From the NCBI RefSeq assembly GCF_027595985.1, contig NC_073313.1:103713552-103777551 (forward strand): a stretch of DNA of 64,000 bases, given 5' to 3'. Both the position numbers and the translations under genes were made by a program. A model generated the notes under the pieces. It was not told the origin of the DNA. It searched no databases and saw only the letters and a program-made list of their open reading frames with translations. Positions 20,068 through 57,720 of this stretch are shown piece by piece (the stretch's first letter is position 1; each line of letters opens with the position of its first letter). This DNA is from Sorex araneus (Eukaryota > Chordata > Mammalia > Eulipotyphla > Soricidae).

Positions 20068-20206
20068 AATCTTCTAAGGAGGAAAGAAGTCAGCCTAGCA
20101 GTAATGCTCTGAAATGAGGGATTAGAGGCCGGAATCCAAAACTCAAGAGCTGCAGCCAGAAGAGGAAGGAACGAGGCCTGAAGACATTTCCTTGGAGAAG
20201 TCTGCC
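20068..20206 (+). other. CLDN2: 5'UTR part of the CLDN2 coding exon with splice acceptor
   Basis: A splice acceptor (CCACCCACAG) ends at 20067, after a moderately pyrimidine-rich stretch. The 139 bases between it and the ATG would be 5'UTR. Mammalian CLDN2 is known to have non-coding upstream exon(s) and one coding exon, which fits. The exact acceptor is inferred, not proved. Confidence 0.55.
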
Positions 20207-20899
20207 ATGGCCTCCCTCAGCCTCCAACTTATAGGCTACATCCTGGGCCTTCTGGGGCTGTTGGGCACGGTGGTGGCCATGCTGCTTCCCAGCTGGCGAA
20301 CAAGCTCTTACGTTGGTGCTAGCATTGTGACAGCAGTCGGCTTTTCCAAGGGCCTCTGGATGGAGTGTGCCACTCATAGCACAGGCATCACCCAGTGTGA
20401 TATCTACAGCACCCTTCTAGGCCTGCCTGCCGACATCCAGGCAGCCCAGGCCATGATGGTAACGTCCAGCGCCATTTCCTCACTGGCCTGCATTATCTCT
20501 GTGGTCGGCATGAGATGCACAGTCTTCTGCCAGAACTCCCACGTCAAAGACAAAGTGGCTGTGGTGGGCGGAGTCTTATTCTTCCTTGGGGGCCTTTTGG
20601 GCTTCATCCCGGTTGCCTGGAATCTTCATGGAATCCTGCGGGACTTCTACTCCCCACTGGTTCCTGACAGCATGAAATTTGAAATTGGAGAGGCACTTTA
20701 CTTGGGCATTATTTCCTCCCTGTTCTCCCTGGGAGGTGGAATCATCCTCTGCTTTTCCTGTACGTCCCAGCGAAATCGCCCCAACTACTATGATGCCTAC
20801 CAGGCTCAGCCCCTCACCACGAGGAGCTCTCCAAGGCCTGTTCAACCATCCAAAACCAAGAATGAGTTTAACTCCTACAGCCTAACAGGGTATGTGTGA
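20207..20899 (+). CDS. CLDN2: Claudin-2, complete single-exon reading frame (230 aa)
   Basis: Tight-junction membrane protein; in this family claudin-2 forms paracellular pores for small cations and water in leaky epithelia. The 230-codon frame matches the family length. Four membrane segments are visible (about residues 8-28, 82-102, 117-140, 163-184). The first extracellular loop carries the claudin signature W30, G49-L50-W51, C54 and C64. Asp65, which confers cation selectivity in claudin-2, and Tyr67 are present. The tail has the 'NYYDAYQAQPL' segment and ends in 'SLTGYV', the PDZ ligand for ZO proteins. The ATG at 20207 sits in a strong Kozak context (GCCATGG); the codon at 20192 upstream in frame is TTG and is not needed. 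The frame has no internal stop. MORC4 lies downstream, tail to tail. Identity comes from near-complete recognition of the mammalian claudin-2 sequence. Confidence 0.97.
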   Translation: MASLSLQLIGYILGLLGLLGTVVAMLLPSWRTSSYVGASIVTAVGFSKGLWMECATHSTGITQCDIYSTLLGLPADIQAAQAMMVTSSAISSLACIISVVGMRCTVFCQNSHVKDKVAVVGGVLFFLGGLLGFIPVAWNLHGILRDFYSPLVPDSMKFEIGEALYLGIISSLFSLGGGIILCFSCTSQRNRPNYYDAYQAQPLTTRSSPRPVQPSKTKNEFNSYSLTGYV

Positions 20900-47014: not shown

Positions 47015-47444
47015 CTGCAGTATAGAGAGGAGTATAAATTTAGGCTTTAAAGTTTTGGAACTTTTCCTTGTTTGATTTCTAGCTTCTCTCCAATACTATT
47101 ATACTAGTCTTTGTAGCATAAAGTGTCAAAATATTTCTTTGTATTCAATACCAGGAATATTTGAAGCATTGAAAGATATGACCACCCCTATCCTATACTG
47201 TCGGGAAACTGGAACTTATGACTCCTAACTTGTGTTGCTTTCTCTTCTAATACTATGCTTGTCTTCCTTCAAGGCCACTCTGTGAGGAAGGTAAAAAGTT
47301 GCTTTCTAATAATGTAGTCTAGAAGCACGAGACTAGATGATAATGCCTGATGGATAAAATCAGAAGCTATGATTGAGAACAGCAAACGGGATGAGGAACT
47401 TACATTATAAAATGAATATTAAGGATCTTAAGAAGAGGAAAATA

Positions 47445-48287
47445 GGAACCTGGAGCCTCGGCACGAGAAACAGACCCTCCGCGCCTATTGACTGTGATCC
47501 TGAGGTCTCCTAACCCATTTTGGCACCAGAGCGGATGCTTGAGCCATGCATTTTGACTGTGAACTGAGCTACAACCTCGTGCAGCCCGGGGAGGGATTTT
47601 TTTCCCTCTCCACCCCATTTTTCTGAGCGAAAATGGCGGCAGCGGCAGCAGCCACGTGGTAAGAGCCACCCTCTAAGACCCCTCCACCAGGAGGTAGGAC
47701 TTTCTTTAGTGACGTAGCCTGTAGGTGGTCCTGGGAGGGGAGGTGTTCCCGGCGCGCCTTCCGCCCAGAGATGAACCGAGAGCCGCGGCACGAGAAGCAG
47801 AGCCTCCGCGCCTATTGACTGTGATCCTGAGGTCTCCTAACCCATTTTGGCACCAAAGCGGATGCTTGCAGCCATCCATTTTGACTGTGAACTGAGCTAA
47901 AATATTAGAAACCCAAAACCGCGCGGCCGCTATCGCTAAGTTTTAAAGTCTTCACTTAAAGTCTTCACTCTTAGCAATGAAGATAAATTATTAGATGATG
48001 CCTATTCAGCAGGCCTGATTGTTGGGGAAAATTTCCAATCAATAATAGTGAGTTCTGTATGGAAATATGGAATGTACTCAATATATATAGAGAATAATGG
48101 GAATATCATTAGCTACTTAGATGGGGGGTGGGGTGGGAGGGGGGTGTATTGGGGTTCTTGGTGGTGGAACGGGTGCACAGGTGTAGGGATGGTGGATTAA
48201 TCAGTATTTGACTGTGACTTAAACCTGAAAGCTTTGTATTTTTTTTCTTTTTTTCACGGTGGTTCAATAAAATATTTCTTAAAAAAA
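47445..48287 (+). mobile_element. Composite non-LTR element: monomeric GC-rich 5' end plus L1-type 3' end
   Basis: The 15-bp repeat AAGAAGAGGAAAATA flanks it exactly (47430-47444 and 48288-48302). The 5' part is GC-rich and repeated: a 327-bp unit (47445-47771) followed by the first 127 bases of a second unit (47772-47898). The unit contains AAAATGGCGGC (YY1-like) and CCACGTGG (E-box). The 3' part (about 48125-48287) resembles the shrew L1 3'UTR ('TTCTTGGTGGTGGAACGGG', 'GGTGGTTCAATAAAAT') and ends in A. No ORF1 or ORF2 lies between. It sits in a MORC4 intron, antisense to the gene. Confidence 0.9.
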
Positions 48288-48766
48288 AAGAAGAGGAAAA
48301 TAAAGAAATTATATAAATGGAAAGACATTGTTATATATAAAACATGAGAATCAGAATTTTAGCAGTAAAATCTAAAAGGAGTACTAAAAACTACAATTCA
48401 TTTATCAAAAGTATCCTCAAAATAAAAATCAGTAATAATTGGAAACCTATAGGCTACTCTACTTCGTAAGTGGCAAAATATTCCACAAGTGCGAACTAAT
48501 AGGAGGTACAGATTAAAAAATGAGTATTCTAAGCAGTTAGTCCCATATTCTAATTACACACTCCTACTTACCAATACTTAATCTCCATGGAGAGGTGCTT
48601 AGGCACATCTGGAGACGACAGGAGACCGCTTATAGATTATAGATTTGGAATTCGCTTAATCTAATTTTCTCCATTTTAAATCTTTTTTTCTAGAGCATAT
48701 ACTCTAGTACCTTTTAAAACCATACTTGTCTTGTAGGAAAAAAATTAAGAAAGTCATGGCTGAATT

Positions 48767-55826: not shown

Positions 55827-57720
55827 CAAGGAAATGGGAAGATATCCCCAGCTATTGGATTGGAAGAATTAACATTGTCAAAATGGCAATACTCACCAAA
55901 GCATTGTAAAATTCAATGTGATCCCTATAAGGATACCCATGACATCCTTCAAAGAAATGGAGCAAACACTCCTGAAATTCATATGGAACAATAAGCACCA
56001 CGAATAGCTAAAGCAATTCTTGGGAAAAATAAGATGGGAGGCATCACCTTCCCCAACCTCAAACTCTACTACAAAGCGGTAATAATTAAAACAGCATGGT
56101 ACTGGAACAAAGGTAGAGCCACAGATCAATGGAACAGGGTTGAATATCCTGACACACACCCTCAAATATATGCCTCAAATACATGATCATCTAATCTTTA
56201 ATAAGGGAGCAAGAAATGTGAAGTGGAGCAAGGAAAGCCTCTTTAAAAAAATGATGCTGGCAAAACTGAATAGCTACATGCAAAAAAAACAATGGGCTCA
56301 ACATCTACCTAACACCATGCAGAAAAGTCAGATCAAAATGTATTACTCACCTCAATATCAGACCAGAATCCATCAGGTACATTAAAGACAAGGCTGGCAA
56401 AACCCTCCAAGAAATTGAAGCTAAAGATATCTTTAAAGGTGACACGCTATTGGCCAAGCAAATGGAAACAGAGATAAACAAATAGGACTACCTTAAACTG
56501 AGAAGCTTCTGCACCTCAAAAGATACAGTGACCAATAAAAAAGTCTACAGGATGGGAAAGGATATTCACCCAATACCCAGCTGATAAGGGGTTGATACCA
56601 AGGATTTACAAGGCACTGGTTGAACTCCACAAGAAGAAAACATCCAACCCCATCAGAAAATGGGGTGATGAAATGAATAGAAACTTTCTCAAAGAAAAAA
56701 TCCAAATGGCCAAAAGACACATGAAAAATGCTCCTCATCACTAATCATCAGGGAGATGATGATCAAAACAACAATGAAATGTCATCTCATACCACAGAGA
56801 CTGGCCCACATTCAAAAGAACAAAAGCAACCAGTGTTGGCATGGATGTGGGGAGAAAAGAACTCACCTTCACTGCTCGTGGGAATCCTAACTGGTTCAGC
56901 CCTTTTGGAAAACAGTATGGACCTTTCTCAAAAAAAATAGAAATTGAGCTCTCATTTTATCCAGCAATACCACTTCTGGAAATACATCCCAGAGATGCAA
57001 AAAAGTATGGTAGAAATGACATCTGCACTTATATGTTCATAGCAGCACTGTCTACATTAGCCAGAATCTGGAAAAAACCCAAGTTCCTGAGAACAGATGA
57101 CTTGTTAAAGAAGCTTTGGTTCATCTACAAAATGGAATACCATGCAGCTGTTAGAAAAGATGAAGTTATGAAATTTGCGTATAGGTGGATCAACATGGAA
57201 AGTATGTTAAGTGAAATGAGTCAGAAAGAGAGGGACATAGAAATATTGCACTCATTTTTGGAATATAAAGTAACAGAATGGGAGACTGACACCCAAGAAT
57301 ATTAGGGATAAGTACCAGGAAGATTACTCCACAGCTTAGAAGCCAGCCTCTCATGCTGGGGGAAATGGCAGCTCAGATAGAGAAGGGATCACCAAGTAAG
57401 GGGTGCTAGGAGGGCCCACTCAGGCTGGGAGATGCGGGCTGAAAGTTGACTATAGTCCGAACGTGATGGCCACTTAATACCTCTATTGCAAACCATACAC
57501 CTAATAGGAGAGAAAAAGCAAAAGGGAATTCCCTACCACAATGGCAGGGTGGCATGGAGGGGATGGGGTGTGGGTGATGGGAGGGATGCTGGGACCATTG
57601 GTGGTGGAAAATGGGCACTGGTGGAGGGTTGGGTACTTGATCATTGTATGACTGAAACACAAGTACGAAAGTTTGTAAGTCTGTAACTACCTCATGGCAA
57701 TTCACTAATAAATTTTTTTA
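55827..57720 (+). mobile_element. L1, 5'-truncated: ORF2 3' part and 3'UTR
   Basis: Starts in the reverse-transcriptase 3' region ('GAATTAACATTGTCAAAATG') and runs to 'TCACTAATAAATTTTTTTA'. A 154-codon open piece at 56841-57305 is the ORF2 C-terminus; elsewhere stops and shifts break it. Similar sequence on both sides (AAAAGGCTGTAAGACA; AAAATGGCTCTAAGTGACA) suggests a target-site duplication in an older L1. Confidence 0.88.

Follow-up and report, generated by a model that had tools for sequence, protein, structure and literature searches.

A non-coding, putatively L1-dependent retrotransposon family of the shrew Sorex araneus that joins tandem promoter-like units to an L1 3' end

RESULTS AND DISCUSSION

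The 843-bp insertion at positions 47445 to 48287 of the window (the whole stretch of 64,000 nucleotides of Sorex araneus DNA that was analysed) belongs to a family that is young, non-autonomous and non-coding. Comparison with its relatives across the genome makes it very likely that the family belongs to a long-lived, non-coding, L1-dependent retrotransposon lineage with the plan of n promoter-like units of ~327 bp followed by an L1 3' untranslated region (3'UTR).

Structure of the window copy

Reading of the sequence and its comparison with itself showed that the insertion is complete, ends in an A-run after AATAAA (48266-48271), and is flanked by target-site duplications (TSDs) at 47430-47444 and 48288-48302; these and all other features of the copy are given on the plus strand. 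Both flanks carry the same 15 bp (AAGAAGAGGAAAATA) without a mismatch, and together with the A-run this exact TSD verified the single L1-type insertion of 843 bp that had been proposed. The first base, a G at 47445, is untemplated (the unit has T here) and is read as cap-derived. In the self-alignment of the unit, a first, full promoter-like unit of 327 bp occupies 47446-47772 and a second, partial unit occupies 47773-47896, with homology to the first unit continuing to 47902. Positions 47446-47541 and 47773-47868 are 94% identical at a step of 327, and positions 47542-47574 and 47870-47902 are 94% identical at a step of 328, which bears out the tandem of one full and one partial unit described in the original prediction. 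The two motifs that it named, AAAATGGCGGC (47630-47640) and CACGTG (47653-47658), can be read directly in the first unit and are candidates for a YY1-like site and an E-box, respectively.

The 3' part with its A-run (47900-48287) matches the young L1 of this genome from ~64 nt past the ORF2 stop. Its predicted likeness to the local L1 3'UTR was seen at seven other places in the window, with 68 to 80% identity over 65 to 211 nt. A region at 47919-47969 is hypervariable in copy-to-copy comparison; the window copy keeps the left arm of a hairpin here (CCGCGCGGCCGC, 47919-47930), and the right arm is gone. The two parts meet on a CTA (47897-47899) that is common to the unit and the L1 3'UTR, a position given by the start of the L1 homology and by genome-wide recurrence. 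The internal junction expected from the first reading thus exists, but its true place is 47897-47899 and not 47900-48125, because the L1 homology already starts there. The first unit has a GC content of 0.58 and the partial unit one of 0.54; the values for two stretches of the 3' part are 0.35 and 0.42. No frame of at least 120 aa overlaps the insertion, in agreement with the claim that it holds no open reading frames.

Copy number and age of the family

The assembly searched comprises 2.406 Gb in 65 contigs. The junction sequence was found at 2863 places (pattern count, at most two mismatches), compared to 0 for the reversed control. Many copies with the same internal junction had been named beforehand as the mark of a non-autonomous family driven by L1, and these thousands of copies with one junction and L1-type TSDs uphold that option. 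A whole-genome search with the 843-bp insertion gave 2831 first-look candidates; the best 40, which were scored, consist of the window copy and 39 further copies that match at 94 to 96% across the entire insertion or the greater part of it, and the 41st match was a partial one at 73%. A single chimeric retrocopy of a host gene, the outcome that would have told against an element family, is ruled out by the 40 scored copies and the 2863 junctions, the host origin of the unit itself being a separate question. The median divergence from the majority sequence was 1.6% at non-CpG sites (34 copies) and 1.85% over the 3' 511 nt (71 copies), in fetched copies that are biased to young, similar ones because they were picked as the best matches to the window copy or its parts. 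A Pol III head (tRNA, 7SL, or 5S) was not found, as every Rfam match over 47400-48350 stayed below the gathering score of its family. Identity as a SINE was therefore rejected, and so was identity as a known RNA family, the best Rfam matches lying far under the gathering scores.

Ends of the insertions and proposed life cycle

TSDs of at least 8 nt were detected by a script in 69 of 72 copies, and after 11 of the 69 had been dropped by eye as spurious, 58 were kept. The median TSD length is 15 nt, with at least 13 nt in 47 of the 58, and the TSDs have an A-rich start; length and start both resemble those of L1 insertions, with the figure for the start inflated by the adjoining A-tail. The 5' ends fall within -22 to +10 of the unit boundary in 48 of the 58 copies (5.9 expected if uniform), and among the three queries used, the 843-bp one starts at the unit boundary and favours copies that do the same, while the other two start elsewhere. 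An untemplated 5' end is present in 31 copies and is a single G in 25 of these. The clustering of 5' ends and the extra G form the footprint that would be expected if a capped Pol II RNA had been copied right through to the end.

We propose the following life cycle. Pol II would start at a unit boundary, and the transcript, capped and polyadenylated, would code for none of the L1 proteins. These proteins, acting in trans, would bind the RNA, probably via its L1-derived 3' end, and the RNA would be inserted by target-primed reverse transcription. During copying, the reverse transcriptase may often slip or fold back at the GC hairpin, and private rearrangements would therefore arise there in many copies.

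The L1-derived 3' part

The 3' part is 76% identical to the young L1 3'UTR over 112 nt. In six of six young L1 copies, ATGCAACTTC follows the same ORF2-type stop at a distance of 28 nt and ACTAAAATAC at one of 64 nt. The ORF2 identity of the frame rests on a match in L090, where a 102-aa frame ending at that stop matches residues 1174 to 1274 of the 1275 of human L1 ORF2 (E value of 9e-32); two pieces from the ORF2 end had no match in Pfam scans. Since the 3' part starts at ACTAAAATAC, past the ORF2 stop, it is 3'UTR only, and the L1 part of the element, which begins ~64 nt after the stop, holds no ORF1 or ORF2 codons. An element retaining the last ORF2 codons was ruled out, as both the old junction described below and the young junction lie past the stop, by 28 and 64 nt, respectively. 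At the young junction the letters are GAGCTA in the unit and ACTAAAAT in L1, with CTA in common. The suggestion of an internally deleted L1 is possible, but the L1 side is only a 3'UTR and no L1 is known to carry the unit.

At ~937-1850 of locus L023, a composite copy adjoins a young L1 3' end in a tail-to-tail arrangement, and it seems that one of them was inserted at the A-tail of the other. The sister sequence at this locus was considered as an independent short family and rejected, as it is the young L1 3'UTR (six fetched copies). Among the best 40 of 221 candidates, all 40 scored places were 100% identical to it, 16 of them (query included) with the top score. This L1 therefore looks recently active in this genome.

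An older subfamily

The pattern GACTGTGAACTGAGCTB occurs at 211 places. All seven fetched loci of this GAGCTG class are composites; six have an earlier junction, and one (L138) has the young junction and no hairpin. The old units are 67 to 77% identical to the young unit over the matched stretches (two loci aligned). The old junction, GCAGTGA/TGCAACTTCTGGCA, lies ~28 nt after the ORF2 stop, upstream of the young junction point. It retains more of the L1 3'UTR, and the young form therefore probably lost more by a second deletion. By eye, the hairpin is recognisable in three of the six copies with the old junction (in one of them partly) and is lost or cut in the other three. A midpoint-rooted FastTree tree of the 3'UTRs placed the old and young composites together, apart from the L1s, with a support of 0.75. 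The existence of older relatives with the same plan and an earlier junction indicates a long-lived and unspliced lineage.

Origin of the 5' unit

The inner 198 bp of the unit matched the window copy and another 39 places at 98 to 99% (best 40 of 1198 candidates). The 30 fetched unit matches represent 20 elements, all of them composites: the 3' part is seen with 25 of the 30 unit stretches, and the other five (L070 to L074) lie in one array with L075 and L076. The unit number varies, with ~11 full units in this array on contig C5. Shortly past the 3' end of this element (C5:105299406-105303497, L070 to L076) there is further unit sequence, as if composites stood in tandem. Rodent L1 elements have monomeric 5'UTRs made of tandem promoter units. 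The shrew element resembles them in its tandem promoter-like units; the difference is that the examined L1s of its own genome have other units.

A search for ORF1 yielded 13300 candidates, of which 150 were scored and 18 loci were compared with the unit. None of these 18 loci carries the unit, and the L1s examined therefore do not use it. All six loci with ORF1 frames of 343 to 351 aa have another GC-rich 5'UTR monomer and a leader, and two of the six have the monomer as a tandem with a 143-bp step. Among the 12 more diverged ORF1 loci, the leader is present in five, a 37-nt leader piece in a sixth, and neither in six, and L124 alone matches the L1 monomer at length. The idea that the insertion reveals a monomeric L1 5'UTR has thus so far found no match among the 18 loci, six of which carry a different monomer. 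Of 20 probes placed ~4.6 to 4.8 kb upstream of young L1 3' ends, one, L109, gave an alignment with the 5' half of L1 (80% identity across 90 nt). Local alignment of the young unit with the L1 5'UTR scored 11 (shuffled mean, 12.9), and that of the old unit scored 18.5 (shuffled, 17.2). A relation between the unit and the L1 5'UTR was rejected on these scores, which are at the shuffled level for both units.

Two origins of the unit have to be weighed. We see about an even chance that a host promoter or another repeat was the source of the unit, which then became fused to the 3' end of an L1 in the manner of SVA/LAVA assembly. Neither the young nor the old unit is similar to the L1 5'UTR above the shuffled level, which points to such a capture, and ATGGCGGCAGCGGCAGCAGCCACGTG-GTAAGAG in the window copy reads by eye like a first exon with its splice donor. 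However, the abundant copies mask any single-copy host source.

Somewhat less probable, though still a serious contender, is descent of the unit from an autonomous L1 side branch, now rare or extinct, whose genuine 5'UTR it would be. The element would then be that L1 without all that lies between 5'UTR and 3'UTR, a classic SIDE (short internally deleted element) with its two ends coming from one and the same element. Tandem-unit 5'UTRs do exist in the L1s of this genome (the two loci with the 143-bp step), the 5' ends of the element behave like L1 5'UTR starts, and the ORF1 loci examined were just 18 of 13300 candidates. However, all 18 lack the unit, and the six with frames of 343 to 351 aa use the other 5'UTR. 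Five of the 12 diverged loci share the known leader and a sixth has 37 nt of it, with the monomer confined to L124. The 20 elements behind the 30 unit matches and the seven GAGCTG-class loci are likewise composites without exception.

The young L1 5'UTR at L115 to L120 consists of GC-rich monomers (143-bp step if tandem) and a leader of ~300 nt, and the 351-aa ORF1 frame of the young L1 is present at many places. In L119, a GC-rich near-palindrome in the L1 leader (GCGGCCGCTAACGCGGGCGGCCGC, positions 1597-1620) resembles the hairpin of the element at another position of L1.

A hotspot of rearrangement at the hairpin

Most copies have a hairpin, CCGCGCGGCCGC-loop-GCGGCCGCGCGG, just 3' of the junction, with a predicted folding energy of -33.8 kcal/mol for a 75-nt stretch. 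The right arm is kept in 47 of 70 distinct copies and absent in 23. These 23 comprise seven in which the 3' neighbour is copied in inverted form, four with direct repeats, and 12 with other changes (nine of them shortenings); a loose text rule had labelled 13 copies as loop-inverted. In the shuffle control, inverted copies of at least 8 nt appeared in 10 of 1995 shuffles. Indels of at least 4 nt were found in the hairpin bin in 20 of 71 copies, and the other 14 bins together gave seven counts. The window copy is itself rearranged at the hairpin, and one copy set was fetched with its rearranged middle, which enriches for rearranged hairpins; they made up 6 of 28 copies in the set from the 843-bp query and, by hand, 7 of 20 in the set from the unit query.

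The right arm was probably lost by template switching of the L1 reverse transcriptase. Hairpin extension, template jumping, and the addition of untemplated bases have been described for human L1 ORF2p (PMC10830420). If so, the hairpin would preserve, copy by copy, a natural record of the ways in which a strong structure may cause a reverse transcriptase to change template.

It is rather doubtful that the hairpin variants arose after insertion, by slippage of DNA replication at the palindrome and not during reverse transcription. Palindromes are unstable in DNA too, and CpG decay is visible in the arms, both of which are in line with slippage. The armless copies are, however, not older than the armed ones (median divergence, 1.62% and 1.85%; P = 0.39), although this absent age effect is weak evidence on the timing. 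Within the preferred reading of template switching, an even more speculative and improbable extension is that the element needs the GC hairpin, for instance as a signal at which the L1 reverse transcriptase pauses or loads. The hairpin would then be a palindrome that rewrites itself within a mammalian L1 parasite that has also acquired its own tandem promoter, and only copies that keep the hairpin would become sources. The hairpin is lost in about a third of the sampled copies yet occurs in the old subfamily as well as in the young one, where other letters are paired, and this would be explained if template switching rewrites one arm from the other.

Relation to known elements

By analogy, the plan of the element and its probable working are most probably those of a SIDE of a non-LTR retrotransposon. 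The element is non-coding, has a fixed junction and has amplified in its own right, and its 3' end is homologous to the 3'UTR of a putatively autonomous L1 of the same genome. Described SIDEs include the R2 SIDE and the R2/R1 hybrid SIDE of Drosophila (PMC3414825) and Persaeus, derived from CR1-Zenon in Lepidoptera; besides Lepidoptera, the passages cited list SIDEs only from fruit flies, Anopheles, and T. brucei (PMC6740152). The likeness lies in the lack of coding sequence, a 5' part that gives the RNA its start, a LINE 3' end, and use of the partner's machinery (PMC3414825 and PMC6740152), the RNA start and the use of L1 machinery being putative in the shrew element. In the R2 SIDE, this 5' part is a ribozyme (PMC3414825). 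A further likeness is with Persaeus, which has short direct repeats at its deletion (PMC6740152). The R2/R1 hybrid SIDE combines the 5' part of one element with the 3' end of another and would be the nearest in logic if the unit is foreign (PMC3414825). Unlike these SIDEs, the shrew element has a mammalian L1 as its partner, a tandem of long units as its 5' part (~11 in one element), and a recurrently rearranged hairpin.

The element also resembles SVA and LAVA of apes in being composite and non-coding, with a tandem-repeat part and mobilisation by L1 in trans, the last being putative here (PMC7353768 and PMC4432496). SVA and LAVA have Alu-like and VNTR parts (PMC7353768 and PMC4432496), whereas no such modules were recognised in the window copy by reading alone, and the shrew element has its tandem units at the 5' end and an L1 3'UTR at the 3' end. 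Chimeras of the human lineage join an L1 3' part to foreign sequence, as here, but in the cited passages they are described as chimeric insertions and not as a self-amplifying family (PMC13174262).

The original prediction had also suggested a spliced L1. SpIREs are likewise shortened L1-derived copies from RNA without an internal stretch, but they arise by splicing at donor and acceptor sites and, in the passages cited, are generally called evolutionary dead ends (PMC5860796). The predicted check for splice sites gave none at the CTA junction, with no GT after it and no AG directly before it, and the junction of the older subfamily differs and lies on GA. It is scarcely credible that each copy is a re-inserted spliced L1 RNA, for although a 5'UTR-like part is fused to an L1 3' end, neither junction has GT/AG, the examined L1s lack the unit, and two successive junctions mark subfamilies of different age. 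SpIRE identity was rejected on the missing donor and acceptor, and this lineage without splice sites at its junctions has amplified to thousands.

No description of this family, or of a mammalian L1 SIDE, including one with its own tandem promoter, was found in the open-access literature; it may be present in Repbase or Dfam. Short internally deleted parasites of LINEs are reported as rare (PMC6740152). A mammalian L1 parasite with tandem promoter-like units, an older subfamily, and thousands of copies would probe which parts of L1 RNA suffice for mobilisation in trans.

Other features of the window

At 56778-57720, the window contains an old L1 3' end, in which a frame resembles the ORF2 C terminus by eye (no Pfam match) and the 3'UTR is 64% identical to the tail of the element. 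An uninterrupted 257-aa frame at 20126-20899 looks like a claudin gene, presumably claudin-2.
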